Source: Haliotis asinina (lineage: Eukaryota > Mollusca > Gastropoda > Lepetellida > Haliotidae). Taken from it: a stretch of 64,000 nucleotides of DNA. A model generated the notes under the pieces. It was given only the letters and a program-made list of their open reading frames with translations, did not search any database and was not told the DNA's origin. This document shows, piece after piece, positions 22,800 to 44,780 of the stretch. Location: assembly GCF_037392515.1 (NCBI RefSeq), contig NC_090281.1, positions 47,096,645 to 47,160,644 of the forward strand. Direction: 5' to 3'. Within the stretch, counting starts at the first letter, position 1; the number at the start of each line of letters is the position of its first letter. Position numbers and translations under genes: made by a program.

Positions 22800-24220
22800 G
22801 TTTGTGGAAAATATACGTTTCCGTACGAAAATGAAAGTTGGTTCTGTTGAAAGTAGTAGTGCATTCTTCACAATTTCCATGTATCGTATAAATACCCGCT
22901 CCTTGCACACAGGCTGCATCTGGACCAAAACCATATATATATATACTTGCAGGCATCAGTTTTACGAGGCATTGTCATTTATCGTTAGTCTCTCAGAGGA
23001 TCTAAATCTATAGCATAGTATGGTAAACCAACTGAAGGTGTATTGTTCCACCAAGGCTACACGTGTCACAATGTTGTGTGTGGGGTGTGTGAATCCTGCT
23101 GCTTGCGTGTCACTCTCGCGGAGGGTAAGTCCAGCCTGATTCCCTGGGTCTGTTGCGCCTGTGCTGAAGATAATCCCTATCCATGCGCAACCGAAAGTTG
23201 GTCGTCATCAGTTACCCTTTCCTCGAAATAGAGTCCTTGTTTTTGCTAATATCTCAGTTTGTATGTTTGACAGAAGCTAACATCTTGACACGGCGACTAC
23301 ATAACCTCATATTTAGTGTAAAAATGCACAATACGTGAAATGAACTCAATTGATTATCTTGCAAAGATGTCGAAAGGAGTCAATTTCTCGGCTTTTCTGA
23401 TTCGCGCCGAAGGACGTGTCAACAAATGTTTCAGTTGTAAACAAAACATAATGTGTCATGACCAAATGATATGGGACTATAATCCATGACCATTTAGTTC
23501 ATCAGACAAGTCGGGATCGACTGACGAGTGTCTATCGAGGAAATGGTAGTTAATGACGACTTCCGGTTGAGGATGGACAGGACTTACGAGTTACGAGCCC
23601 GTATCTACAGCACATCAAAACAACAACGCTTGGAAACGGAGAGCCATTTAATGCTCACTACAGTTAACCTGTGTCGCCGTGATGGTTCGCTGCCTTGCCC
23701 GTGGAGAATCTGACAGACGAAATTACATCATGTTGAACAGTCTGAAATTGAGCTGAAACAAACACATAGAAAAATGTATCGCAAGACTTATGATTTAATT
23801 TTAACCTTAACTAGATGCTGACATCGTTGTCATAGCGGTCTGTTCCAAGAGAGGTTGGCTGTCATCCATCGACCAGCAAACAAGTGGCACCGAGACATTC
23901 AGGTGACCACGTGACAACAGGATACAGCTCATCTCAGAATCACCAGATTTCATCCGTTCATATCAGTCAGTGAGCATAACGTAAGTCATGTCGGCAGTAT
24001 TTCGGCTACATTGTGAGAATTCGTATCAAGGTGCGTGTTACAGCAGAGTGGCTTCAACATCTTCGTCTGTCTAACAGAATGGGCTGAAAGCGCTTAACAT
24101 ATAACGGGTATTCCACCAGACAATCTGTCAGACGTCCCTTGGCATCTGCAGAGCATAAAGCAGCACGAATAGTTTGATGTAAACTCGACGTCACAGGTGA
24201 CGCGGGTTATGCACAACCAT
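22800..24220. other. Gene-free stretch between convergent genes
   Basis: Lies between the 3' ends of the TMEM272-like gene and gene A. Short open stretches occur on both strands, but none has convincing splice partners or composition. Confidence 0.4.
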
Positions 24221-24780: not shown

Positions 24781-27700
24781 TTACAAGATCTCATTCTGCA
24801 CGATTTGAATGACTTGCTGGATTTCAGCCACTGTTTCCGCAGCGGCACCCTGGGCCTCCAAAGCCTCGTTCTCGATGCCGTTGGCGTAATTGCGTATCAT
24901 AACCTTCTCATCAGCTAGAACAAAAATGTTGGAAGAGTGAGTGAGTGAGTGAGTTTAGTTTTACGCTGCATTCAGCAATATTAAAGCTATATACCGGCGG
25001 TCTGTAAATAATCGAGTCTGCACCAGACAACCCAGTGATCAACAGCATGAACATCGATCTGCGCATTTGGGACCCGATGACATGTGTCAGCGAGTCTGAC
25101 CACCCGATCCCGTTAGTCGCCTCTTACGACAAGCATAGTCGCCTGTTATGGCAAACATGGGTTGCCGAAGGCCTATTCTAGCCCGGGACCTTCACGGGTC
25201 GTGTTGATAGAGGAGCTGAGGGGTTTGAGTGCATCGCAGAAATTTACAGTGTGTCACGTTTACCAGAATGTGTCAATGTTAGGATGAGGAAGATTTAAAA
25301 GTATACACATCTCGGGCGCTCGCCGTGCCTCAGGTCGCAAGCGTACAACGAGGAGGGCTTGGTGCTGACAAACATAACCGTGGCGAACCGGGATTCGAAC
25401 TCTCAATCAAAGGAAACGACTTTGCATGGAGAGTCTTTCATCTTCCATCAACCAAGCCAGCGCACCACAACACCCGATCCCGTTAGTCGATCCTAACGAC
25501 AAGCATGGCTTGTTGAAAGCCAATTCTAAAACGAATATTCACGGGGTCAGCCCCACAGTAACAGTTGCAAACATGGCACTGTCGTCAAGATACCTACCAG
25601 AGAGAGTCTTCCCAGGGTTGTAGTAACTAGACGGTGGTGAGTGGTAGTAGCTTGAGTAACCATAGTAGCTGGATGAGGGCGAGTAGTAGTGGCTTGAGAA
25701 ACCATAGTAGCTGGACGATGGAGAGTAGTGGTAACTTGAGGGACCATAGTAGCTGGACGATGAAGAGTAGTGGTAACTTGAGGAACCATAGTAGCTGGAC
25801 GATGGAGAGTAGTGGTAACTTGAGGAACCATAGTAGCTGGACGATGGAGAGTAGTGGTAACTTGAGGAACCATAGTAGCTGGACGAGGGCGAGTAGTAGT
25901 AGCTTGAGGGACCATAGTAGCTGGACGACGGGGGGCTGTAGTAGCTTGATCCATAATCTGAAATATACACACAGATAAGGAAAGGGTAATCATGAACTAA
26001 AGGTAAACCGTGGAAGAGAAGGGTAGTCCGCGATGTGATGAAGCAAAGGTACGTTATTTGGCATATCCCACTGGCTGATCGTATAAGTACAATGACGAAC
26101 CAGCAGTGACGTCATCAACTCCTATTGTAAAGGAGGCCGGTGGTGTTGAAGCAGAGATGCACAGAGTAACGCTCCCCGTAAGGTGCTACACCCTTGCCAG
26201 CTATATATATATAGTAACGCTCCCCGTAAGGTGCTACACCCTTGCCAGCTATATATATATAGCGCATCTTCCCGGCATCTCAAGGGATCACAGTGTCTGT
26301 GTCGTATCATCCTCCGGTGTACGAAGTCGTCATCGTTTTGGCAGTAGTATGTTGAAGCTGTGGGGTGGAATTTGTCGACAAAGAACGTCTCCTTCCGCCC
26401 TGCAAGATTTGTCCGGTGTCTATGATGCAGAAACTATGGTCAACTGGACAGTCTTCAAGACTATTCCAGATTCCTTCAGGCAGGGTCGCCTCCGTGGTGT
26501 AGTGGTTAGAGCGTCCGCCGAGAGAGTGAAAGATCGCGGGTTCTATTCCCGACTGCGTTAAACCGAAATACGTTAGAATATAGTACTTGTTGGTCTCACA
26601 CATGGGAACCGAAAGGACTGGTCGGCATAATGTGGGGTATTCATGTTTAATGGCGATATAATTGGTATTTCAGCTAAAACACCTGTAGTACAAGCAGCCA
26701 CACATACACACGCACGCACGTCGTCAGATGAGCGAAGTATTACAAGTACGACGTTAAACCCCATTTCATGTCACCTCAGGCAGAGTGGCAGGCGGTTCTG
26801 CAGATCTTCTTCAACTGACAAGTGATGGTGGCACTCCGTGTTAAACTAGAGGTTGTCTGACGTCTGACGTTTGACGTTTTGTGGGACAGTTTGTGTCTCC
26901 TGCATTGACTTGACCCTCTGGTACTCACAAATGACCAAGCATTATTTCCAAATATGTATTACAACAAAAACGAAGTACTGTAACTACATTCGTCTATTCT
27001 TAACTTTAGAATATGCCTTGTTGCTGTCACCTTTAATATTGTTTTGAGTAGCTTATACACCAGATAAATCAATGTTGTGCACCATTCTTCATCCCCTCCC
27101 CCTCCCCCCGCCCGACACACACACACATCGGCTCTACTCATTGCGTTGATGGAGCACATGCGACGAACGATGGCATGTCCACAACTGACATGTTTCCTTT
27201 ATGGCGAGCTATTTTTGAGCAGCTCCAAACACTATGTTTCCCAAGTTTTAAGCACAAATGAGCATGCACTTTCTGCTAAGACTGCAAAGAGCGCCACAAT
27301 GCTCTAAATATGGTAAGGGTTCTAACATATTTTATGATAGACATATGGCGACGACAGAATCATACTTAAAGCATCGTATGTTCTTCGTTTCCGCTTCCGT
27401 TCAATTGACTAATTACATTGCATCTGTATGTGTCTGTGCCACGTGTCACGAGCAGGACTCCCCCTTTTCATGAATATTCAGCATCATCACTATTTGAATA
27501 GTATATTGGAGAGGTTTTAATTTGCTCATTTTATTTACATAAAATGTCCACGCCCTAATTTCTATGGCCGACGTAAAGAATGCATTCATTGCTCAACGAC
27601 TGTTTGAATCAGACAGTAACGTGACTGCATTCACGATAATCGATCAACGTAATGAAGATTCGCCTATCACGTTAACAATTCTACTGAGCCAAATCACATA

Positions 27701-28842
27701 GCCTACAGGCATGGATTCCTCGAACCCAAATCTAACCCAGATCTTTACTGTATACATACATGGATTGCTCAAAGCCAAGTCCAGACTACGTCTTCACGGC
27801 CTACTAGCATGGGTTGTTCTTAGCCATGTCTAAGATAGATCTTCACGAGATACAATCATGGACTGCTTAAAACCAATTGTGATGGTGTAAAATGCCTCAC
27901 GTACATGCTTGTCTCTTCAGTCGAGAGTTCTCCTTGAGGGAGTTGAGGAACTTACTGTCCTGAAAACAGAGAACCAAAGCATAATTAAACACGTACTTTA
28001 GGAATGGGTGAGTAAGAACGATACTTTACAACATTGTTCCAGCAACCTTACTGGGATTGGTCAGGTAAAAGCCATACACCTAGGAACACCCGCTCAATAC
28101 TTATATCAAGGGATACCCGCTCAGTCATCATACCTATGGACACCCGCTCATTCGTTATACTTCGGGACACCAGCCCATTCATTATACATAGGGACCTCTG
28201 CTCATTCAGTATACGTACGGACACCCTCTCATTTATTATACCTATGGACACCCGCTCATTCATTATACCTATGGACACCCGCTCATTCATTATACTTAGG
28301 GACACCTTCTCATTCGGTATATCTAGGGACACCCTCTCATTCATCATGCCTAGGGACACTCGCTCAGTCATCATACCTAGGAACACCCTCTCATTCATTA
28401 TACCTAGGGACACTAGCTCAGTCATCATACCTAGGGACACCTTCTCATTCAGTATACCTAGGGACACTAGCTCAGTCATCATACCTAGGGACACCCTCTC
28501 ATTCAGTATACCTAGGGACACTAGCTCAGTCATCATACCTAGGGACACCCTCTCATTCAGTATACCTAGGGACACTAGCTCAGTCATCATACCTAGGGAC
28601 ACCCTCTCATTCAGTATACGTAGGGACATCCGCTCATTCAGTATACCTAGGTACATGCTCTCATTTATTATACCTAGGGACACTCGCTCAGTCATCATAC
28701 CAAGGTACATCCTCTCATTCAGTATACCTAGGGACACTCGCTCACTCATATCTGTGACTGGGATATTTAAATTGACACTGACCTGAACACCACCCGCTGC
28801 AAGGGTGACGAGACATGCTACAATCAAACCGTGAGTGATCAT
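24781..28842 (-). CDS. Gene A: secreted Tyr/Ser-rich repeat protein
   Basis: Exons 28842-28783, 27959-27905, 25957-25598 and 24914-24781 total 609 bp, or 202 aa plus stop, with phases 0, 1 and 1. Exon 1 is a signal peptide (MITHGLIVACLVTLAAGGVQ). Exon 2 is a short propeptide ending RLKR-QA, a furin-type site. Exon 3 is about 120 residues of imperfect repeats on YYGSSSYHYSPSSS, very rich in Tyr and Ser. Exon 4 is helical, carries the block EAQGAAAETVAE and ends IVQNEIL. A TATA box sits 51-60 bp upstream of the ATG. It shares exon order, phases, RLKR and an EAQGA block with gene B on the opposite strand, so the two are paralogues. It resembles no family that I can name; an extracellular matrix, shell, mucus or egg-coat role is inference from composition. 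Intron 1 is nearly all minisatellite. Confidence 0.68.
24940..25205 (-). mobile_element. SINE-like dispersed repeat (family 1), near full length
   Basis: Starts GTGAGTGAGTGAGTTTAG, runs through CCACCCGATCCCGTTAGTCG and ends GGGACCTTCACGGGTC. It lies in the last intron of gene A. A partial second copy follows at 25466-25560. Confidence 0.85.
25466..25560 (-). mobile_element. SINE-like fragment (family 1)
   Basis: Contains CACCCGATCCCGTTAGTCG, GACAAGCATGGCTTGTTGA and ATTCACGGGGTCAG. It abuts the Tyr/Ser repeat exon of gene A. Confidence 0.65.
25610..25957 (-). repeat. Coding tandem repeat of gene A
   Basis: Roughly 42-45-bp units encoding SSYHYSPSSSYYGxS variants; the middle units are nearly identical and the outer ones diverged, as in a coding minisatellite kept in frame. 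Confidence 0.75.
26150..26270. repeat. Two-copy tandem duplication, ~48 bp
   Basis: GTAACGCTCCCCGTAAGGTG and CTACACCCTTGCCAGC followed by a TA dinucleotide run are repeated twice. It lies in the long intron of gene A. Confidence 0.8.
26487..26765 (+). mobile_element. tRNA-derived SINE, third family
   Basis: The A-box-like GTGGTGTAGTGGTTAGAGCG and B-box-like GGGTTCTATTCCCG fit a tRNA head. The distal end ACAAGTACGACGTTAAACCC differs from the tail of family 2. Confidence 0.65.
26770..27900. other. Intron sequence of gene A without recognised content
   Basis: Only a C-rich run followed by a CA run at 27094-27127 stands out. Confidence 0.4.
28085..28750. repeat. Minisatellite, 27-bp unit with 54-bp higher order
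   Basis: About 24 units. CCTAGGGACACCCTCTCATT plus CAGTATA alternates with CTAGGGACACTAGCTCAGTC plus ATCATA in the central part, giving a dimeric period. It fills intron 1 of gene A. Open frames on both strands arise because 27 is a multiple of three. Confidence 0.85.
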
Positions 28843-28892
28843 GGTTGTTGATGTCACAGAGACCCGATTGCACTCGCAATGAAATGTACACC

Positions 28893-28900
28893 TTTATATA
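28893..28900 (-). promoter_or_regulatory. TATA box of gene A
   Basis: Minus-strand TATATAAAGG, 51-60 bp before the gene A start codon, at a distance similar to the TATA box of gene B. Confidence 0.55.
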
Positions 28901-29589: not shown

Positions 29590-31165
29590 CAATGATTGTA
29601 GTAAGTTGTGTAATAGGTAGTGTGGTACGTGTAATCAGTTGTGTAATAAGTAGTGTGGTAAGTGTAATCATTTGTGTGATAAGTAGTGTGGTAAGTGCAA
29701 TCAGTTGTGTAATAAGTAGTGTGGTAAGTCTAATCAGCAGTATAATAAGTAGTGTGGTAAGTGTAATCAGTTGTGTAGTAAGTAGTGTGGTAAGTGTAAT
29801 CAGTTGTGTAAGAAGTAGTGTGGTAAGTGTAATCAGTTGTGTAATAAGTAGTGTGGTAAGTGTAATCAGTTGTGTAATAAGTAGTGTGGTAAGTGTAATC
29901 ATTTGTGTAATAAGTGGTGTGGTAAGTGTAATCATTTGTGTAATAAGTAGTGTGGTAAGTGTAATCAGTTGTGTAATAAGTAGTGTGGTAAGTGTAATCA
30001 GTTGTGTAATAAGTAGTGTGGTAAGTCTAATCAGTTGTGTAATAAGTAGTGTGGTAAGTGTAATCATTTGTGTAATAAGTAGTGTGACAAGTGTAATCAT
30101 CTGTGTAATAAGTAGTGTGACAAGTGTAATCATTTGTGTAACAGGCAGTGTGACAAGTGTAGTCAGGTGTGTAATAAGTAGTGTGGTAAGTGTAATCAGT
30201 TGTGTAATAAGTAGTGTAGTAAGTGTAATCAGTTGTGTAATAAGTAGTGTGGTAAGTCTAATCAGTTGTGTAATAAGTAGTGTGGTAAGTGTAATCAGTA
30301 GTGTAATAAGCAGTGTGGTAAGTTTAATCAGTTGTGTAATAAGTAGTGTGGTAATTGTAATCAGTTGTGTAATAAGTAGTGTGGTAAGTGTAATCATTTG
30401 TGCAATAAGTAGTGTGGTAAGTGTAATCAGTTGTGTAATAACTAGTGTGACAAGTGTAATCAGTTGTGTAATAAGTAGTGTGGTAAGTGCAATCAGTTGT
30501 GTAATAAGTAGTGTGGTAAGTCTAATCAGCAGTATAATAAGTAGTGTGGTAAGTGTAATCAGTTGTGTAATAAGTAGTGTGGTAAGTGTAATCAGTTGTG
30601 TAGTAAGTAGTGTGGTAAGTGTAATCAGTTGTGTAATAAGTAGTGTGGTAAGTGTAATCATTTGTGTAATAAGTAGTGTGGTAAGTGTAATCAGTTGTGC
30701 AATAAGTAGTGTGACAAGTGTAATCAGTTGTGTAATAAGTAGTGTGGTAAGTGTAATCATTTGTGTAATAAGTAGTGTGGTAAGTCTAATCAGTTGTGTA
30801 ATAAGTAGTGTGGTAAGTGTAATCATTTGTGTAATAAGTAGTGTGACAAGTGTAATCATTTGTGTAATAAGTAGTGTGGTAAGTCTAATCAGTTGTGTAA
30901 TAAGTAGTGTGGTAAGTGTAATCATTTGTGTAATAAGTAGTGTGACAAGTGTAATCATTTGTGTAATAAGTAGTGTGGTAAGTGTAATCAGTTGTGTAAT
31001 AAGTAGTGTGACAAGTGTAGTCAGGTGTGTAATAAGTAGTGTGGAAAGTGTAGTCAGTTGTGTAATAAGTAGTGTGGTAATTGTAATCAGTAATGTAATA
31101 AGTAGTGTGGTAATTGTAATCAGTTATGTAATAAGTAGTGTGGTAATTGTAATCAGTTGTGTAAT
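29590..31165. repeat. Large minisatellite, 33-bp unit
   Basis: About 48 copies of GTGTAATCAGTTGTGTAATA followed by AGTAGTGTGGTAA, with recurrent variants (CAGTTG or CATTTG; GGTAAG or GACAAG). Because 33 is a multiple of three and one reading lacks stops, long open frames exist on both strands; I treat them as artefacts. Confidence 0.9.
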
Positions 31166-31689
31166 ATATATTACTATGTTCATATTAGGAATTTATAAAC
31201 GTTTCTATTTAGGAAAAGCAAGCTATATGGGTGTCAACTTCCATATTGTGAATAACACGGCGTTTCGGGGCGTATGCTTGGCCCTGAAGTCATCAGGTCA
31301 TCATCCAAAACTTCGCATTATTCACAATAATGAAACTGACATCTATATATCTTGCTTTTCTCATGCATTCCACTGCTAAATGCCCTCCAAAGATTTGTTT
31401 CTATTAACTTAGTTATGAGAATACCGCTGACGTGCGAGAGTCTTGTGCAATGTTGTCACACATCTTCAAAGAGACTAAAAAGCAAAACCTGATCTGTTCT
31501 TCTATGCCAAGCACACAATGGAAGGTCATTAGACATCCGAGCTGTTAGCGGTTATTTCCCAGCACACACGGCAATGGACGTCCCCTGACACGTCCCCAGT
31601 CAAGCATGTGTGCAATGTGGGTACCGTGCCCAAGCTTGGGGTAGCTCTTGGACAGTAGCAACCTAGTCCATCTCCAAGTTAATCAACAG
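31166..31689. other. Gene-free stretch between two minisatellites
   Basis: Short segment with no repeat family or exon that I can support. Confidence 0.35.
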
Positions 31690-33010
31690 CTTGGCGTAGG
31701 TCTTCAGGCAGAACGTTGATCTAGCTCTTCAGGCAGAACGTTGGGCAATACCAATTCAATCATCTCCAGGTTGATCAACAGCTTCGTCTAGCTCTTCAGG
31801 CAGAACGTTGGACAATACCAATGTCAATCATCTCCAGGTTGATCAACAGCTTCGTCTAGCTCTTCAGGCAGAACGTTGGACAATACCAATGTCAATCATC
31901 TCCAGGTTGATCAACAGCTTCGTCTAGCTCTTCAGGCAGAACGTTGGACAATACCAATGTCAATCATCTCCAGGTTGATCAACAGCTTCGTCTAGCTCTT
32001 CAGGCAGAACGTTGGACAATACCAATGTCAATCATCTCCAGGTTGATCAACAGGTTCGTCTAGCTCTTCAGGCAGAACGTTGGGCAATACCAATTCAATC
32101 ATCTCCAGGTTGATCAACAGCTTCGTCTAGCTCTTCAGGCAGAACGTTGGGCAATACCAATGTCAATCATCTCCAGGTTGATCAACAGCTTCGTCTAGCT
32201 CTTCAGGCAGAACGTTGGGCAATACCAATTCAATCATCTCCAGGTTGATCAACAGCTTCGTCTAGCTCTTCAGGCAGAACGTTGGACAATACCAATGTCA
32301 ATCATCTCCAGGTTGATCAACAGCTTCGTCTAGCTCTTCAGGCAGAACGTTGGACAATACCAATTCAATCATCTCCAGGTTGATCAACAGCTTCGTCTAG
32401 CTCTTCAGGCAGAACGTTGGTCTAGCTCTTCAGGCAGAACGTTGGACAATACCAATGTCAATCATCTCCAGGTTGATCAACAGCTTCGTCTAGCTCTTCA
32501 GGCAGAACGTTGGACAATACCAATTCAATCATCTCCAGGTTGATCAACAGCTTCGTCTAGCTCTTCAGGCAGAACGTTGGACAATACCAATTCAATCATC
32601 TCCAGGTTGATCAACAGCTTCTTCTAGCTCTTCAGGCAGAACGTTGGACAATACCAATGTCAATCATCTCCAGGTTGATCAACAGCTTCGTCTAGCTCTT
32701 CAGGCAGAACGTTGGTCTAGCTCTTCAGGCAGAACGTTGGACAATACCAATGTCAATCATCTCCAGGTTGATCAACAGCTTCGTCTAGCTCTTCAGGCAG
32801 AACGTTGGACAATACCAATGTCAATCATCTCCAGGTTGATCAACAGCTTCGTCTAGCTCTTCAGGCAGAACGTTGGACAATACCAATGTCAATCATCTCC
32901 AGGTTGATCAACAGCTTCGTCTAGCTCTTCAGGCAGAACGTTGGGCAATACCAATGTCAATCATCTCCAGGTTGATCAACAGCTTCGTCTAGCTCTTCAG
33001 GCAGACAATA
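31690..33010. repeat. Large minisatellite, ~70-73-bp unit
   Basis: About 18 units of TCATCTCCAGGTTGATCAAC, AGCTTCGTCTAGCTCTTCAG and GCAGAACGTTGGACAATACC. Some units are joined by short partial units (near 31720, 32420 and 32715). A stray unit piece occurs at 33725-33765. Confidence 0.9.
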
Positions 33011-33129
33011 CCAACATCAACCATCTAACCATCTCCAGCTTAATTTACAGCTGGGGTAGATCTTCAGGCATATAACAACACATAATTTAAAGTATTTATA
33101 CACAATGTCAACTACTCACAACATAATGA

Positions 33130-34005: not shown

Positions 34006-34012
34006 TATATAA
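34006..34012 (+). promoter_or_regulatory. TATA box of gene B
   Basis: TATATAA 40-46 bp before the ATG at 34052, with a CACGTCAC element just upstream at 33981-33988. Confidence 0.65.
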
Positions 34013-34051
34013 GGCCACGTCCTTCCAAGGCTTCAGGCAAAACATAACACA

Positions 34052-37000
34052 ATGAGATACTTCCTGGTGCTGGTGGCGGGTCTCCTTGCCTGGAACGTTG
34101 TGAGAGCTAACGATGAAGCACCAGAGGTGAGTGAGTGGGTGAGTGGGCGGGTGGGTTGGATGCAGGAGGGAGAGAGGGATTTTTAATGTGGATTTTTCCA
34201 ACAGAGGTGACTTGGAAAACGAGTTCCTCAATAAAAGGTTTCATTCTTTTTGTGGCACAGACTGCAGAGAAGGCCGAAATTCGTCTGAAGCGCGAAGCAG
34301 GTACGTTAAAACATTGTTTACTCAAAGTTTTACAATAGAAACACATTCTTCTGTTATTAATGCGTTGTGGTGTTGTACATTATCAAAACGTGTGTTCGAG
34401 TATCTTCAGCACACTGGAATATAAATGACTTATTGGTTGATCATAGACGTTAATCTTTCAAGTAAGCAACGGTCGGCAAAAGATTTATACCTGCAAAATA
34501 ATTCTCGTTTCAGGGTATACAACAGCGGCGGCCTACTCCACAACCCCTAACCCCTACAAATCATCTGGTACCAAACGGAGTCCAACTGGTATGGCGTGAG
34601 ACAGCATGACATGTTTACAATTCCTATTAGCTCATGAAGCAAACGGAGATGTACAAATAAGCCTCACTACACACGACACACGATCTCCTCGCATTCTTCT
34701 TGCCGCCAACAATATGGGTCTCATTCCAGGGTACACCAAAGTGGCCTACTCTACAACTCCCTACCCACAAAAGTCATCAACAACCAAAAAGAGGTCTTGG
34801 TTTCCATGGAAGCGTAACAAGCGTCAAGCATGTAAGATTTCTCATTGACCACTGTATTGGATCTCCCGACACTTCCTGCAGTTTCAGTTGCCAGACGTCT
34901 CTGCAAGATGACAGTGGAGATTCCTATTGTCACCACCTGCTCGTCTTGATTATAACCTCACTTCCACATCTAAACACATTCTAACTGTTTCACAATGTAA
35001 CCCGATTGTCTACCACAACGTAACGAAGATTGTCAATGATAAGCTCTCCCCATCAAGGCAGTTCACTATAGTGTGAAGTCGGGTATGGTGAACAATTGGG
35101 CGTGGAGAGCAATAGGGTAAGGTGAATAATCCCGTATGGTGAACAATCGAGTAAGGTAATCGTACAATAAACAATCAGGTGTTGTGACCAGTTGGATATG
35201 GTCAACAATCGGGTATGTTGAACAATCGGGTGTGTTGAACAATCGAGTGTGTTGAACAATCGAGTATGGTGAGCTGTTGTATACAGAGGACAGTCAAGCA
35301 TGGTGCACAGTTTTCTGTGGTAAAAAGCTGCGTGTAGTGAAGATTCGCTTGTTGATTGTTGTGCTTGGTAATCTTCAGGCCACTGGAATATAACTGACTT
35401 CTTGCATTAACTTCCAAACCCGATAAGCATCGCACATTACAAAGTAGAGACACGTCTTTTCAAATTTCAGAACACTCAGTATTATTTGTTCTTACCACAT
35501 TGTCAATGTGAGTGGTTGATCATAGATGTTATTCTTTCAAGTAAGCTTTCAACGATCGCAAGTTGCCTTGTCGGAAGAAGATCTGTACCTTCAAGCTATG
35601 TCTCGTTTCAGGGTATACAACAGCGGCGGCCTACTCCACAACCCCTAACCCCTACAAATCATCTGGTACCAAACGGAGTCCAACTGGTATGGCGTGAGAC
35701 AGCATGACATGTTTACAATTCCTATTAGCTCATGAAGCAAACGGAGATGTACAAATAAGCCTCACTACACACGACACACGACACACGATCTCCTCGCATT
35801 CTTCTTTCCACTTTCTTTTCTTTTAGTGTGTAGATCATACCTACTCACCCTCGTCCTTCCAGTTCTATGCAGTAATTGTATTTCAAGTCGAATTTGCAAT
35901 GTCTGTTTGTTGGACATTATTTACTTTCATTAAAGACTTCTTTTGGGTAATATAAGCTATCAACTATGACACTGGCAAACTGGTGTTCGAGACACACTTT
36001 GTTATTTAGATCCAGATGCCACCAACAATATGGGTCTCATTTCAGGGTACACCAAAGTGGCCTACTCTACAACTCCCAAACCACAAAAGTCATCAACAAC
36101 CAAAAAGAGGTCTTGGTTTCCATGGAAGCGTAACAAGCGTCAAGCATGTAAGATTTCTCATTGACCACTGTATTGGATCTCCCTACACTTCCTGCAGGTT
36201 CAGTTGCCAGACGTCTCTGCAAGATGACAGTGGAGATTCCTATTGTCACCACCTGCTCGTCTTGATTATAACCTCACTTCCACATCTAAATACATTCTAA
36301 CTGTTTCACAATGTAACCCGATTGTCTACCACAGCGTAACGAAGATTGTCAATGATAAGCTCTCCCCATCAAGGCAGTTCACTATAGTGTGAAGTCGGGT
36401 ATGGTGAACAATTGGGCGTGGAGAGCAATAGGGTAAGGTGAACAATCCCGTATGGTGAACAATCGAGTAAGGTAATCGTACAATAAACGATCAGGTGTTG
36501 TGACCAGTCGGGTATGTTGAACAATCGGGTGTGTTGAACAATCGAGTATGGTGAGCTGTTGTATACAGAGGACAGTCAAGCATGGTGCACAGTTTTCTGT
36601 GGTAAAAAGCTGCGTGTAGTGAAGATTCGCTTGTTGATTGTTGTGCTTGGTAATCTTCAGGCCACTGGAATATAACTGACTTCTTGCATTAACTTCCAAA
36701 CTCCAAACCCGATAAGCATCGCACATTACAAAGTAGAGACACGTCTTTTCAAATTTCAGAACACTCAGTATTATTTGTTCTTACCACATTGTCCATGTGA
36801 GTGGTTGATCATAGATGTTATTCTTTCAAGTAAGCTTTCAACGATCGCAAGTTGCCTTGTCGGAAGAAGATCTGTACCTACAAGCTATGTCTCGTTTCAG
36901 GGTATACAACAGCGGCGGCCTACTCCACAACCCCTAACCCCTACAAATCATCTGGTACCAAACGGAGTCCAACTGGTATGGCGTGAGACAGCATGACATG

Positions 37001-40000
37001 TTTACAATTCCTATTAGCTCATGAAGCAAACGGAGATGTACAAATAAGCCTCACTACACACGACACACGATCTCCTCGCATTCTTCTTTCCACTTTCTTT
37101 TCTTTTAGTGTGTAGATCATACCTACTCACCCTCGTCCTTCCAGTTCTATGCAGTAATTGTATTTCAAGTCGAATTTGCAATGTCTGTTTGTTGGACATT
37201 ATTTACTTTCATTAAAGACTTCTTTTGGGTAATATAAGCTATCAACTATGACACTGGCAAACTGGTGTTCGAGACACACTTTGTTATTTAGATCCAGATG
37301 CCACCAACAACATGGGTCTCATTTCAGGGTACACCAAAGTGGCCTACTCTACAACTCCCAAACCACAAAAGTCATCAACAACCAAAAAGAGGTCTTGGTT
37401 TCCATGGAAGCGTAACAAGCGTCAAGCATGTAAGATTTCTTATTGACCACTGTATTGGATCTCCCTACACTTCCTGCAGGTTCAGTTGCCAGACGTCTCT
37501 GCAAGATGACAGTGGAGATTCCTATTGTCACCACCTGCTCGTCTTGATTATAACCTCACTTCCACATCTAAATACATTCTAACTGTTTCACAATGTAACC
37601 CGATTGTCTACCACAACGTAACGAAGATTGTCAATGATAAGCTCTCCCCATCAAGGCAGTTCACTATAGTGTGAAGTCGGGTATGGTGAACAATTGGGCG
37701 TGGAGAGCAATAGGGTAAGGTGAACAATCCCGTATGGTGAACAATCGAGTAAGGTAATCGTACAATAAACGATCAGGTGTTGTGACCAGTCGGGTATGTT
37801 GAACAATCGGGTGTGTTGAACAATCGAGTATGGTGAGCTGTTGTATACAGAGGACAGTCAAGCATGGTGCACAGTTTTCTGTGGTAAAAAGCTGCGTGTA
37901 GTGAAGATTCGCTTGTTGATTGTTGTGCTTGGTAATCTTCAGGCCACTGGAATATAACTGACTTCTTGCATTAACTTCCAAACCCGATAAGCATCGCACA
38001 TTACAAAGTAGAGACACGTCTTTTCAAATTTCAGAACACTCAGTATTATTTGTTCTTACCACATTGTCAATGTGAGTGGTTGATCATAGATGTTATTCTT
38101 TCAAGTAAGCTTTCAACGATCGCAAGTTGCCTTGTCGGAAGAAGATCTGTACCTACAAGCTATGTCTCGTTTCAGGGTATACAACAGCGGCGGCCTACTC
38201 CACAACCCCTAACCCCTACAAATCATCTGGTACCAAACGGAGTCCAACTGGTATGGCGTGAGACAGCATGACATGTTTACAATTCCTATCAGCTCATGAA
38301 GCAAACGGAGATGTACAAATAAGCCTCACTACACACGACACACGATCTCCTCGCATTCTTCTTTCCACTTTCTTTTCTTTTAGTGTGTAGATCATACCTA
38401 CACACCCTCGTCCTTCCAGTTCTATGCAGTAATTGCATTTCAAGTCGAATTTGCAATGTCTGTTTGTTGGACATTATTTACTTTCATTAAAGACTTCTTT
38501 TGGGTAATATAAGCTATCAACTGTGACACTGGCAAACTGGTGTTCGAGACACACTTTGTTATTTAGATCCAGATGCCGCCAACAATATGGGTCTCATTTC
38601 AGGGTACACCAAAGTGGCCTACTCTACAACTCCCTACCCACAAAAGTCATCTACAACCAAAAAGAGGTCTTGGTTTCCATGGAAGCGTAACAAGCGTCAA
38701 GCATGTAAGATTTCTCATTGACCACTGTATTGGATCTCCCTACACTTCCTGCAGGTTCAGTTGCCAGACGTCTCTGCAAGATGACAGTGGAGATTCCTAT
38801 TGTCACCACCTGCTCGTCTTGATTATAACCTCACTTCCACATCTAAATACATTCTAACTGTTTCACAATGTAACCCGATTGTCTACCACAACGTAACGAA
38901 GATTGTCAATGATAAGCTCTCCCCATCAAGGCAGTTCACTATAGTGTGAAGTCGGGTATGGTGAACAATTGGGCGTGGAGAGCAATAGGGTAAGGTGAAC
39001 AATCCCGTATGGTGAACAATCGAGTAAGGTAATCGTACAATAAACGATCAGGTGTTGTGACCAGTCGGGTATGTTGAACAATCGGGTGTGTTGAACAATC
39101 GAGTATGGTGAGCTGTTGTATACAGAGGACAGTCAAGCATGGTGCACAGTTTTCTGTGGTAAAAAGCTGCGTGTAGTGAAGATTCGCTTGTTGATTGTTG
39201 TGCTTGGTAATCTTCAGGCTGAACCACTGGAATATAACTGACTTCTTGCATTAACTTCCAAACCCGATAAGCATCGCACATTACAAAGTAGAGACACGTC
39301 TTTTCAAATTTCAGAACACTCAGTATTATTTGTTCTTACCACATTGTCCATGTGAGTGGTTGATCATAGATGTTATTCTTTCAAGTAAGCTTTCAACGAT
39401 CGCAAGTTGCCTTGTCGGAAGAAGATCTGTACCTACAAGCTATGTCTCGTTTCAGGGTATACAACAGCGGCGGCCTACTCCACAACCCCTAACCCCTACA
39501 AATCATCTGGTACCAAACGGAGTCCAACTGGTATGGCGTGAGACAGCATGACATGTTTACAATTCCTATCAGCTCATGAAGCAAACGGAGATGTACAAAT
39601 AAGCCTCACTACACACGACACACGATCTCCTCGCATTCTTCTTTCCACTTTCTTTTCTTTTAGTGTGTAGATCATACCTACTCACCCTCATCCTTCCAGT
39701 TCTATGCAGTAATTGTATTTCAAGTCGAATTTGCAATGTCTGTTTGTTGGACATTATTTACTTTCATTAAAGACTTCTTTTGGGTAATATAAGCTATCAA
39801 CTGTGACACTGGCAAACTGGTGTTCGAGACACACTTTGTTATTTAGATCCAGATGCCGCCAACAATATGGGTCTCATTTCAGGGTACACCAAAGTGGCCT
39901 ACTCTACAACTCCCTACCCACAAAAGTCATCTACAACCAAAAAGAGGTCTTGGTTTCCATGGAAGCGTAACAAGCGTCAAGCATGTAAGATTTCTCATTG

Positions 40001-43000
40001 ACCACTGTATTGGATCTCCCTACACTTCCTGCAGGTTCAGTTGCCAGACGTCTCTGCAAGATGACAGTGGAGATTCCTATTGTCACCACCTGCTCGTCTT
40101 GATTATAACCTCACTTCCACATCTAAATACATTCTAACTGTTTCACAATGTAACCCGATTGTCTACCACAACGTAACGAAGATTGTCAATGATAAGCTCT
40201 CCCCATCAGTTCACTATAGTGTGAAGTCGGGTATGGTGAACAATTGGGCGTGGAGAGCAATAGGGTAAGGTGAACAATCCCGTATGGTGAACAATCGAGT
40301 AAGGTAATCGTACAATAAACGATCAGGTGTTGTGACCAGTCGGGTATGTTGAACAATCGGGTGTGTTGAACAATCGAGTATGGTGAGCTGTTGTATACAG
40401 AGGACAGTCAAGCATGGTGCACAGTTTTCTGTGGTAAAAAGCTGCGTGTAGTGAAGATTCGCTTGTTGATTGTTGTGCTTGGTAATCTTCAGGCTGAACC
40501 ACTGGAATATAACTGACTTCTTGCATTAACTTCCAAACCCGATAAGCATCGCACATTACAAAGTAGAGACACGTCTTTTCAAATTTCAGAACACTCAGTA
40601 TTATTTGTTCTTACCACATTGTCAATGTGAGTGGTTGATCATAGATGTTATTCTTTCAAGTAAGCTTTCAACGATCGCAAGTTGCCTTGTCGGAAGAAGA
40701 TCTGTACCTACAAGCTATGTCTCGTTTCAGGGTATACAACAGCGGCGGCCTACTCCACAACCCCTAACCCCTACAAATCATCTGGTACCAAACGGAGTCC
40801 AACTGGTATGGCGTGAGACAGCATGACATGTTTACAATTCCTATCAGCTCATGAAGCAAACGGAGATGTACAAATAAGCCTCACTACACACGACACACGA
40901 TCTCCTCGCATTCTTCTTTCCACTTTCTTTTCTTTTAGTGTGTAGATCATACCTACTCACCCTCGTCCTTCCAGTTCTATGCAGTAATTGTATTTCAAGT
41001 CGAATTTGCAATGTCTGTTTGTTGGACATTATTTACTTTCATTAAAGACTTCTTTTGGGTAATATAAGCTATCAACTGTGACACTGGCAAACTGGTGTTC
41101 GAGACACACTTTGTTATTTAGATCCAGATGCCACCAACAATATGGGTCTCATTTCAGGGTACACCAAAGTGGCCTACTCTACAACTCCCAACCCACAAAA
41201 GTCATCTACAACCAAAAAGAGGTCTTGGTTTCCATGGAAGCGTAACAAGCGTCAAGCATGTAAGATTTCTCATTGACCACTGTATTGGATCTCCCTACAC
41301 TTCCTGCAGGTTCAGTTGCCAGACGTCTCTGCAAGATGACAGTGGAGATTCCTATTGTCACCACCTGCTCGTCTTGATTATAACCTCACTTCCACATCTA
41401 AATACATTCTAACTGTTTCACAATGTAACCCGATTGTCTACCACAACGTAACGAGGATTGTCAATGATAAGCTCTCCCTATCAAGGCAGCTGATTAAAGT
41501 GTGAGGTCGGGTATGGTGAACAAGTGGGTGTGGAGAAAAATTGGGCATGATGAACAATCGAGTCCGGAGAACAACTGATTTGGGTGAACTTTCTGCTGTG
41601 GGGGTCAGTTGCGTATGGTGAACTAAGTCGGGGTGGAGAGCGATTGTTTATGATGAACAATTACGTATGATGAACAATCGGGTGTGGCGAAGTGCCGGGT
41701 ACAGTGAATAGGCAGGTGTGATGGACACTCGGCTATGGTGGACAATCGGGTACAGTGAACAGTTGGGTATGGTGAGCAATGGGACACAGAGGACGGTCTA
41801 TGATGGTTAACATGCTACCGCCCCTCCCCTCCCCTAACTCTCCTCCAATTCTGAACCTCCCCATCCCAATCCCTACCGCCGCTCCCCCTCTCAGCCATAT
41901 CCCCCTTTTCCCTACCACCCCTACCTTTCTCAACTCCCCCTCCCCTTCCCTACCGCTCTCCCCCCCCCCCCTTCCTTCTTAACTACCCTTCCCCTTGCCG
42001 ACCGCCCCCTCCCTTTCCGCATCGCCTCTCCCCCACTCAACAGCCGTTTCCCCATCCTGTCGCCCCTTCCCTACCACTCTTTCCCCTTTTGAACCGCCAC
42101 TCCCCTTCCCGCTTTCGTCTGAAACACCAATACATTCCTACATTTCTATTCCGAGAAGTACCAATCTTCCGGTAGTGTACTGTTTGTTGTACTCCGGCGA
42201 CAAATTGACACACGTTCTTGTTCACGCAGATTACACAGCTCCCAACCAGTATGTGACAACCACATATCCGGACTACCAAACAACGGGCTACCAGTACATG
42301 ACAACCACATATCCGGACTACCAAACAACGGGCTACCAGTACATGACAACCACATATCCGGACTACCAAACAACGGGCTACCAGTACATGACAACCACAT
42401 ATCCGGACTACCAAACAACGGGCTACCAGTACATGACAACCACATATCCGGACTACCAAACAACGGGCTACCAGTACATGACAACCACATATCCGGACTA
42501 CCAAACAACGGGCTACCAGTCCATGACAACCACATATCCGGACTATCAAACAACGGGCAACATGTTGTACACTGACGATGGTTCAAGTGATCAAGGTAAT
42601 GTTTCATTTCTTCAAACTGAATCTCTTTGTGAAGCGAACAGCATTCTCCCGATACTATGTACGACGGTGTTACTTTCACGCAGATTCTTGCCGAGGTTTG
42701 GTTACATTTATATGCTGTTCGTCTCGAAGTCCAGGTACTTTCGAGGTTTCACCTATCTCAGTCTTCCCTGTGTATTGGGAACTTAGTGCAGTGTGTAAGC
42801 TCACATCTTAAGCGGGGACAATGTTACAAGTAAGGCGTTGTAAAGTGGCTACCAATGGTTACAGCGGGGACAATGCAACTAACCAAGGCCTTGTAAAGGG
42901 ACCATCTATATTGACAGTGTAACTTAACACGGTCTTGTAAAGGGGGACCACCTATAGTTACAGCGGGGACATGGGTCCTACTATGGATACAACGGGGACA

Positions 43001-43166
43001 TGTAACTGAATATGGCGTTGTAATGTGTCAAACTATGATTCCAGCAGAGACGGTGTACCAGCTGGTCAGCCTGGGACAGTCTCTGCTGCAGGAGGCCCAG
43101 GGCGCCTTAACTGATGCTGTAGCAGCTGAGGACATTATGAAGCAACTGGAGGACACACTGCTTTGA
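34052..43166 (+). CDS. Gene B: secreted Tyr/Thr-rich repeat protein with six duplicated exon pairs
   Basis: Exon 1 (34052-34126) is a signal peptide, MRYFLVLVAGLLAWNVVRAN. Exon 2 (34261-34300) is a propeptide ending RLKR-EA. Then come six copies of exon a (34514-34588, 35612-35686, 36901-36975, 38176-38250, 39456-39530, 40731-40805) and exon b (34730-34831, 36046-36147, 37328-37429, 38603-38704, 39883-39984, 41158-41259). Exon c (42230-42595) codes for about seven GYQYMTTTYPDYQTT repeats. Exon d (43045-43166) is helical (SLLQEAQGALTDAVAAED). All joins from exon 2 onward are phase 1. With every exon used the product is 554 aa. Exon a is Tyr/Thr/Ser/Pro-rich; exon b is basic and ends WFPWKRNKR-QA, a furin-type site, so the chain may be cut into several peptides. 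The cassettes could instead be alternatively spliced. Paralogue of gene A; an extracellular structural, adhesive or peptide-precursor role is inference. Confidence 0.68.
34514..41480 (+). repeat. Six-copy tandem array of a 1.28-kb exon-intron cassette
   Basis: Exon b starts are spaced 1316, 1282, 1275, 1280 and 1275 bp. Introns are as alike as exons, showing recent unequal exchange. The first unit has a short a-b intron (141 bp against 352-359 bp). Each unit holds its own small array of GTATGGTGAACAATCGGG-like pieces in the b-a intron; a diverged run of these continues to about 41790. Confidence 0.9.
41814..42135 (+). repeat. Pyrimidine-rich tract
   Basis: About 320 bp of almost only C and T on the plus strand (runs of CCCCTCCCC), upstream of exon c of gene B. 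The complementary strand is G-rich with many GGGG runs. Confidence 0.85.
42244..42560 (+). repeat. Coding minisatellite of gene B, 45-bp unit
   Basis: Seven units encoding Y-Q-Y-M-T-T-T-Y-P-D-Y-Q-T-T-G. The inner copies are identical at DNA level. The first unit (V for M) and the last units (S for Y, synonymous changes) differ. Confidence 0.9.
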
Positions 43167-43169
43167 ATA

Positions 43170-44780
43170 CACAGGGCGACTTTGTACTCACAACACGAAG
43201 TAAGGAAGACCCTCCTTCTCATATGTAGGTCGATTGTGGTAAAAAAAACATGAACAACATATTTCCAAATAATGCTCTTAACAACTTTTTCACGTAAGCT
43301 TTGCAAAAATGAGAAAGTGTACCAATAACGTCAAATTTGAGTCTCTGGATACTATGGTCATAATCCTGGCGAGAGCCGAATAGGAAACTTTTCAAGTGAG
43401 ATGTTGGACCTTGCCTGTGAACTGAATTAGTTTGGTCTCCGGATCCATGGACTCATGTCTCCTGACCTTCTTCCACAATGATCTTTCTCGTTAACATTTG
43501 ATCCCTTCGTGGGAATGACCTCCCCACATGTACTTGAGACGCTGAGGTGCCACATGATTGGCGCAAACAAACCATAATCTCTGCTTTCTATCGCGAGGTG
43601 AGCTATTTAGTAACTTCTCCTAATCCTTTATGGACACAAGTCTGCTTTCTGTTGGAGGTGTTTAATAACTTTTCCAAATGCTTGATGAACAAAAAACCTG
43701 ATGTCTGTCGTGAGCTGCAGCACAACTATAACTTAGACAGAAACAACTGTCACAGCTTAGGAACTGCGACATGATAGTACTTACTGTCACACATTCCTTA
43801 TGATGTCGGTGAAACATTTTGAACACCCACAGTGAATCATATTCTTCTTTTTTTTTTACAGAATTTTGGACTGGGCGATCACGTTCCTTTAAGAAGATAC
43901 AAATTTGTTCTGTGTGACTGATAATAAACGCGTTCACTGCCAAAATGTGTGTTTATACAACCTTGGTTTTCGTTTTAAAACTGCCCATGTAGAACTGCTC
44001 GCCAGAACGGACCAACGTTTGCATCGCGTGAACGCATCATGATATACGTACGGCTGTGAAGTGCGTACGCAAGTGAATTAAAGGTTGAGGACGATGGAAA
44101 ACGATAGATTTGTGTATTAGCGTTAATCTATTGTAGGTTTGTAGGTTCGGAACTGCAGTCCTAGACAATAAGCATTACGTGTTTGCTCTTTCGTTCAACT
44201 TTCTTCATGTCTTCACACACAAGAAAATTATGTTTAGCTCCTTATAAAAGGCAAGAGATTCGCATAAATTTATCTAGTTTCCATTTACCTGTAAATTTAG
44301 ATAAACACTGCAAATATAAGTGCCACTGCCCAACATTTCCTCGAAACATTTCCAAATCGGCAGAGATGAGTGATCATACCTGAAGCTCAAACTCAAATTC
44401 TTTATTCTCTAGAAACCGCCATGGGTAGATGACAGTATTTAGGATTTACTTAAAGCAATATAACACCTATGTGATGGCGGCATGAACAGACGACAAAGAA
44501 TATATCTTCCATATATTACATCCACTTCGTGACAAGCAGTGACGCTGTGGGACTATTCTAAGATGAAAAACAGACAAAAAGGAGGACCAACATTTGCAGG
44601 TTTGAATCAATTCGAATCTCCGGAAAAGGAGGTCAGTACTCTTCTTTCTTTTCATAGTAGGCCTGATGGATCGTAGACCCATCACACGGTTATCACCATG
44701 TAATACCGTGGAATTGCAGAGGACTGGGACAAATACATTTAGGATTAGCAATTATTGTCACACGACTTGCTTACAGAAGT
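43170..44780. other. 3' flank of gene B and gene-free DNA
   Basis: An AATAAA at 43923-43928 is a possible, distant polyadenylation signal for gene B. No further gene supported. Confidence 0.4.

Follow-up and report, generated by a model that had tools for sequence, protein, structure and literature searches.

A 64,000-nucleotide (nt) stretch of Haliotis asinina DNA (contig NC_090281.1, positions 47,096,645 to 47,160,644 of the forward strand; hereafter the window, with coordinates counted from its first letter) contains a predicted gene, gene B, whose coding span at 34052-43166 on the plus strand comprises 16 exons that splice into a continuous frame of 553 residues and a stop. The exons are arranged in the order signal exon, propeptide exon, six copies of a cassette made of exon a and exon b, repeat exon c, and last coding exon d. 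The sequence suggests that gene B encodes a secreted precursor that would be cleaved by a convertase into six basic peptides plus a structural protein that is acidic and rich in Tyr and Thr, a reading to which we give somewhat better than an even chance. Gene A lies head to head with it on the minus strand (28842-24781), with the two start codons 5.2 kilobases (kb) apart.

Predicted products and exons of gene B

Splitting the gene B protein at R-x-[KR]-R gave 36 amino acids (aa), six fragments of 59 aa, and a final product of 163 aa, with such a furin-type site closing all six units as well as the propeptide. The net charges of the 59-aa fragments were +11, +13, +13, +12, +12, and +12 (sum +73), in line with the description of exon b as very basic in an initial annotation of this DNA. 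The 163-aa product had a net charge of -16, contained 18.4% Tyr, 24.5% Thr, and 6.1% Gly, and started with QAYY; the precursor as a whole contained 11.6% Tyr and 4.3% Gly and had no Cys. Gene A split into 36 aa and 166 aa, the latter with a net charge of -5, 22.3% Tyr, 31.3% Ser, and a QAYY start. The features of gene B are as follows.

34006..34014, plus strand, TATA box TATATAAGG, 46 nt 5' of the ATG
34052..34126, plus strand, exon 1, signal peptide MRYFLVLVAGLLAWNVVRANDEAPE, phase 0 out
34261..34300, plus strand, propeptide exon (40 nt), ends R-L-K-R-E-A, phase 0 in and 1 out
34514..34588, plus strand, exon a (75 nt), cassette 1
34730..34831, plus strand, exon b (102 nt), cassette 1, ends RNKR-QA
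35612..35686, plus strand, exon a, cassette 2
36046..36147, plus strand, exon b, cassette 2
36901..36975, plus strand, exon a, cassette 3
37328..37429, plus strand, exon b, cassette 3
38176..38250, plus strand, exon a, cassette 4
38603..38704, plus strand, exon b, cassette 4
39456..39530, plus strand, exon a, cassette 5
39883..39984, plus strand, exon b, cassette 5
40731..40805, plus strand, exon a, cassette 6
41158..41259, plus strand, exon b, cassette 6
42230..42595, plus strand, exon c (366 nt), phase 1-1, Tyr/Thr 15-aa repeats (YQYMTTTYPDYQTTG type) and an acidic tail
43048..43166, plus strand, exon d, C-terminal helix and stop
43862..43945, plus strand, predicted exon of the 3' untranslated region (3'UTR), AATAAA at 43923, end approximate

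Splice sites were scored with a matrix and ranked among the AG or GT sites of the window. The exon 1 donor, GTGAGT, ranked among the best GT sites, and for the 12 cassette exons the acceptors fell within the top 1.0-3.4%, and the donors within the top 3.1-3.2%, of the respective sites. A second candidate donor for exon a, GTGAGA, located 7 nt downstream, was rejected; it ranked in the top 11.0% of GT sites, versus 3.2% for the donor used, and by inspection it would place exon b out of frame and lead to a stop. The repeat in exon c has a period of 45 bp and 7.0 copies. Exon d was predicted to form one helix spanning residues 2-37 of 38 (AlphaFold2 without alignment; mean predicted local distance difference test score, pLDDT, 96.0).

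Cleavage-type ends of exon b and the propeptide exons

RNKR at the close of each exon b, as reported in the initial annotation, was present in all six b exons, followed in each by QA and a phase-1 donor. A further R-x-K-R site, RLKR, absent from that annotation, lies in the propeptide exon of gene B. The signature R-x-K-R-[QE]-A at phase 1 before GT[AG] occurred at eight sites only in the window, namely the six b exons and the propeptide exons of both genes, and had no match in 100 shuffled windows generated as first-order Markov samples; the scan in its earlier form returned one match in 60. This pattern was composed post hoc, with the sites known, and the scan was repeated with any two residues allowed after R-x-[KR]-R. 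The resulting looser pattern, R-x-[KR]-R-x-x-N|GT[AG] preceded by an in-frame AG, had nine matches in the window, eight of them at these sites. Over 100 shuffles the mean was 0.46 matches per window and the maximum 2, and the reversed window had one.

At the nucleotide level, the end of exon b was identical to that of the gene A propeptide exon at 14 of 16 nt (3 of 2000 shuffles as good) and to that of the gene B propeptide exon at 13 of 16 nt (16 of 2000), both matches spanning the cleavage site and the donor; for these and the other exon, promoter, and 3'UTR alignments, mononucleotide shuffles were used. The junction codons b|a and b|c yield QA-W-Y and QA-Y-Y, respectively, and the propeptide junction of gene A also yields QA-Y-Y. 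By these sequence marks, each cassette is mature-protein-like at its start and propeptide-like at its finish. With exon b closing as a copy of a propeptide-exon end, the cassette resembles an inserted processing unit. The initial annotation had offered either a cleaved precursor or a splice-variable matrix protein; the match between the exon b and propeptide ends, together with the QAYY starts, strengthens the precursor half of that proposal, and the matrix half keeps the smaller share of probability that is assigned to it below.

Organization and variation of the cassette array

All 12 cassette exons were flanked by AG and GT, entered and left in phase 1, and stop-free in frame, in agreement with their earlier description as symmetric. 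The junctions among the propeptide exon, exon a, exon b, and exon c were all without stops, so that cassettes may be retained or removed in frame. The claim that any number of these exons can be skipped holds to that extent, but the b-to-d junction creates TAG and exon c thus cannot be skipped directly after exon b. Similarly, the unit length given as 1.28 kb applies to four of the five a-to-a spacings (1289, 1275, 1280, and 1275 nt), but not to the first, which is 1098 nt. The first a-b intron (34589-34729) is 141 nt long, versus 352-359 nt in the others, which contain an extra block of approximately 211 nt.

The copy number of the cassette derives from a single assembly, in which the copies were 97-100% identical at aligned positions, indels excluded. 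Exon a was identical in 15 of 15 pairs, and divergence at aligned positions was 0-2.9% in exon b, 0.3-2.1% in the a-b introns, and 0.1-1.1% in the b-a introns. When the sixth unit was ended 220 nt past exon b, 24 columns varied among the units; 21 were intronic, and the three among the 177 exon positions all fell in exon b, exon a being invariant. Neighbouring units have variants in common (for example, units 1-3 versus units 4-6), which fits stepwise tandem duplication, and private indels are also present. The stretch 5' of the first exon a is a diverged version of the internal intron (69 of 99 alignment columns alike). The alignment 3' of the sixth exon b runs for 315 columns and ends at 41574; its final 85 columns hold 18 of its 20 mismatches by manual count, and the sequence lying more than approximately 220 nt past that exon is likewise a diverged intron version. 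Such diverged outer flanks are expected if unequal exchange homogenises the inner units. A 17-bp minisatellite (TCGGGTATGGTGAACAA type), which may promote unequal exchange, was observed in all five b-a introns and 3' of the last exon b at the following positions.

35204-35272, first b-a intron
36395-36554, second b-a intron
37677-37836, third b-a intron
38952-39111, fourth b-a intron
40227-40386, fifth b-a intron
41507-41780, 3' of the last exon b

Exons a and b are themselves homologous, agreeing in 68 of 91 columns of an alignment from cassette 5 that starts approximately 24 nt upstream of the exon; the homology is drawn from cassette 5, and the comparison in cassette 1 aligned only an intron stretch common to both flanks. 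Over 20 codons, exon a differed from exon b with a synonymous divergence (dS) of 0.95-1.22 and a nonsynonymous divergence (dN) of 0.20-0.23, giving a dN/dS of 0.19-0.24 for four of the six b copies, to two of which the remaining two are identical. A dN/dS of approximately 0.2 argues that both exons were translated during their divergence. A by-eye idea that exons a and b are also homologous to the start of exon c was dropped; the best local DNA matches lay outside the exons.

Gene A as a counterpart without cassettes

The features of gene A are as follows.

28892..28900, minus strand, TATA box TATATAAAG, 58 nt 5' of the ATG
28783..28842, minus strand, exon 1, signal peptide MITHGLIVACLVTLAAGGVQ
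27905..27959, minus strand, propeptide exon, ends S-R-L-K-R-Q-A, phase 0 in and 1 out
25598..25957, minus strand, repeat exon, Ser/Tyr 14-aa repeats (GSSSYHYSPSSSYY type), phase 1-1
24781..24914, minus strand, exon d, C-terminal helix and stop
23630..23752, minus strand, predicted 3'UTR exon, ATTAAA, end approximate

Genes A and B have in common the exon order signal, propeptide, Tyr-rich repeat, and helix, with the same phases (0, 1, 1), and a prepropeptide of 36 residues that ends with RLKR followed by [QE]A. Exon d of gene A was likewise predicted to form one helix (residues 2-42 of 43, mean pLDDT 95.6; AlphaFold2 without alignment). On both strands of the window, TATATAA[AG]G occurred twice, 5' of the ATGs of genes A and B only, the motif having been defined from these two sites, and the broader TATA[AT]AA[AG] occurred six times. 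By inspection, the 3'UTR is split in both genes, with a donor near the stop (GTGAGT 3 nt past the stop in gene A and GTAAGG at 43200, past the stop, in gene B, both unscored by-eye readings), a pyrimidine-rich acceptor, and a short exon bearing the poly(A) signal. The DNA of the two genes was similar in the propeptide exons (3 of 2000 shuffles as good) and in exon d (15 of 16 nt in common; 7 of 2000 shuffles as good). Based on these two similarities, the architecture, and the phases, gene A is taken as an unamplified structural paralogue of gene B, so that the layout of gene B would be a shared plan with an insertion rather than a one-off. No a- or b-like exon was found in gene A among the best nine tblastn matches per query.

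Proposed scenario and its alternatives

From what is established about secretory convertases, we suggest that the gene B polypeptide would enter the secretory pathway and lose its signal, after which a furin-type convertase would cut at seven sites, after RLKR and after each of the six RNKR. These cuts would free six 59-residue basic peptides rich in Tyr, Thr, Ser, and Lys, five of which would begin with Gln-Ala-Trp-Tyr and might carry pyroglutamate, and the final cut would free a 163-residue acidic, Tyr-rich protein beginning with Gln-Ala-Tyr-Tyr. The basic and acidic products may then be co-secreted and build an extracellular material through charge and tyrosine cross-linking. The cassette may have originated when a repeat-type exon gained a propeptide-type end, and unequal crossing-over may have multiplied and homogenised the a and b pair, giving more basic products per transcript. 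The phase symmetry would allow copy number to change through duplication or exon skipping with the frame intact. In a fuller version, possible though doubtful, this one gene would supply the two components of an extracellular material at a set proportion (net charges +73 for the basic peptides together and -16 for the acidic partner), both released by the same convertase, with the number of symmetric cassettes, each a repeat exon fused to a propeptide-type end, tuning the ratio over evolution or between tissues.

If the cleaved-precursor reading is true, a single-product secreted gene would have become a multi-product gene by having its own processing signal copied into an internal exon pair that was then amplified in frame. 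The insert-free gene A would then offer a ready before-and-after comparison, and cassette number would be a variable that can be counted between individuals, species, and tissues and set against the ratio or properties of the material.

However, several points weigh against the cleaved precursor and the gene structure on which it depends. The signal peptides of both genes were judged by eye, and the acceptors of exon d in gene B and of the repeat exon and exon d in gene A are poor (top 10.7%, 15.9%, and 9.6% of AG sites, respectively). The propeptide junction of gene B deviates from the others, its first product starting with EAGY instead of QA-aromatic-Y. Amphipathicity of the C-terminal helix was unsupported, with 266 (gene B) and 651 (gene A) of 2000 shuffles reaching at least as high a hydrophobic moment. 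Similarity between genes A and B was not significant in the DNA of the signal exon and exon c (1097 and 1451 of 2000 shuffles as good, respectively) or of the promoter and 3'UTR (1113 and 661 of 2000, respectively), nor in the exon d protein (460 of 5000), and significant similarity thus did not extend to every shared exon. The synonymous excess between exons a and b was modest (binomial p 0.024-0.048), the third-position excess had p values of 0.014-0.075, above 0.05 for one of the four distinct b versions, and the alignment includes a one-codon gap positioned for the fewest differences. Furthermore, the exons have varied no less than the introns since amplification, and recent selection is thus not demonstrated.

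Gene B may alternatively encode an uncut, splice-variable matrix protein in which cassette number varies, RNKR is mostly not cleaved, and a basic block binding mineral or polyanions is joined to a Tyr-rich block. The symmetry of the 12 cassette exons and exon c and the stop-free junctions among the propeptide exon and exons a, b, and c would suit such a protein, as would the presence of basic and Tyr-rich blocks in one chain, which resembles the lysine-rich matrix proteins (KRMPs) of pearl oysters (PMC4498902). We nevertheless consider it unlikely, since exon b closes like the propeptide exon down to the pair of residues that follow the cut, a match for which a plain basic block would have no need, and since gene A has one such site in the same place. 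It is decidedly unlikely that exons a and b, or exon a alone, are no longer spliced, which would leave a four-exon gene B like gene A with the array as a passenger intronic repeat. The equal variability of exon and intron columns since amplification is compatible with this, as are frame-keeping skipping from the propeptide exon to exon c and the loss from exon a of the b-type donor in favour of another GT (our own reading of the alignment; top 3.2% of GT sites), but the a/b divergence at a dN/dS of about 0.2 and the ranks of the cassette acceptors and donors given above argue against it. The absence of stops and frameshifts from 12 of 12 copies also does so, with little weight because divergence is too low.

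Cutting at TKR/S, KKR/S, WKR/N, and NKR/Q could instead release short peptides, for example the SWFPWKRNKR region in six copies, as in a peptide-hormone or antimicrobial precursor. Each cassette has four basic stretches (KR, KKR, KR, and KR), and its mix of Trp, Pro, and Arg is, we presume, reminiscent of indolicidin-like peptides. Antimicrobial genes with furin-cut repeat precursors are known (PMC9246212). Nevertheless, Gly, which directly precedes dibasic sites in amidated neuropeptides, was found ahead of none of the basic sites in the six cassettes, all of which have T, T, W, or N there. Gene A, built on the same plan, is a Ser/Tyr repeat protein with no a/b-like exon in the tblastn comparison described above, and runs of Lys and Arg are expected of any basic structural block, which makes short-peptide release very unlikely. 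Finally, the 97-100% identity of the units at aligned positions would be consistent with an assembly artefact accounting for all or some of the sixfold copy number. The ordered variants, private indels, and diverged sequence on either side of the array fit stepwise unequal crossing-over better than a collapsed or doubled haplotype, and an artefact is thus extremely unlikely.

Other repeats around the two genes

The signal exon of gene A reads on stop-free for 264 residues (28842-28048, minus strand) into intron 1, crossing a 27-bp minisatellite with 9-aa repeats of the ILNERVSLG type; if intron 1 were retained, the gene would thus specify another secreted protein built of repeats. In intron 3 of gene A, a stretch resembling a short interspersed nuclear element (SINE) with a TCAC tail was noted by eye (25500-24930, minus strand), for which neither ARAGORN nor Rfam returned anything. 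Between the two genes, a 33-bp minisatellite (29597-31166) reads on the minus strand as TYHTTYYTTDY in one frame with 8 stops in 536 codons, and its translation is similar in composition to exon c, a resemblance that may reflect chance or a decayed repeat exon. The sequence CTTCAGGCA lies near the gene B start codon at 34031 and again at 33062 and 33727; it occupies 22 positions in or beside a 68-bp minisatellite (31702-32995) and occurs elsewhere only at 664, 26474, and 12146 (minus strand). The 68-bp minisatellite might be derived from a duplicated gene start.

Comparison with known systems

In Pfam, the proteins of genes A and B matched four families up to an E value of 1, all under the cut-off. 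The best resemblance was to New_glue (PF21827; E 0.0084, 16.3 bits versus a cut-off of 31), which excludes membership and may be due to composition. Ten other open reading frames (ORFs) of the window, out of 95 listed, matched no Pfam family up to an E value of 0.01, and NCBIfam gave no matches. In the PDB, the gene B protein had two matches (E 0.35 and 0.45) and the gene A protein matched an antibody chain (E 0.051), none of which was taken as meaningful; a match of gene A residues 30-173, the Ser/Tyr repeat, to a chain of the enoyl-CoA hydratase/isomerase family (E 1.4e-4) was judged to reflect low complexity. The window had no matches in Rfam at gathering thresholds or with ARAGORN. Six strings from the two proteins had no occurrence in the literature searched, and among the literature matches listed none was recognised by title or abstract as concerning gene B, all being analogues. 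Genes A and B are thus predicted to encode secreted Tyr-rich proteins to which the libraries searched offered no match, and gene B appears to bear an amplified in-frame processing cassette.

The repeats of filaggrin are located in one exon. Its precursor, profilaggrin, resembles the proposed gene B product in being cleaved into many structural units, 10-12 in humans; in vitro, furin and PACE4 separate its N-terminus from the first repeat, and the remaining processing falls to several other proteases (PMC9140947). Unlike profilaggrin as described there, gene B has a furin-type site at the end of every unit.

The shell proteome of Haliotis laevigata includes many repetitive low-complexity shell proteins (PMC6003135); the words 'tyrosine' and 'furin' are absent from the main text of that paper. 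The pearl oyster matrix protein KRMP, treated together with shematrins (PMC4498902), combines a Lys-rich basic block with a Tyr-rich low-complexity block. The gene B cassettes correspond to its basic Lys-rich region (+11 to +13 per 59 aa), but gene B contains no counterpart of its Gly/Tyr-rich region (Gly 4.3%, and 6.1% in the final product), being Thr/Tyr-rich and without Cys. Gene B also differs in its recurring R-x-K-R sites and in the amplification of an exon pair.

Baramicin A of Drosophila, described as a 'protein-based operon' (PMC9246212), is likewise a single secreted precursor of tandem peptides separated by furin sites with differing terminal domains, and it has paralogues that lost the repeated part. 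Gene B differs from it in that two distinct symmetric exons make up each repeat and that the last product would be a Tyr-rich repeat protein.

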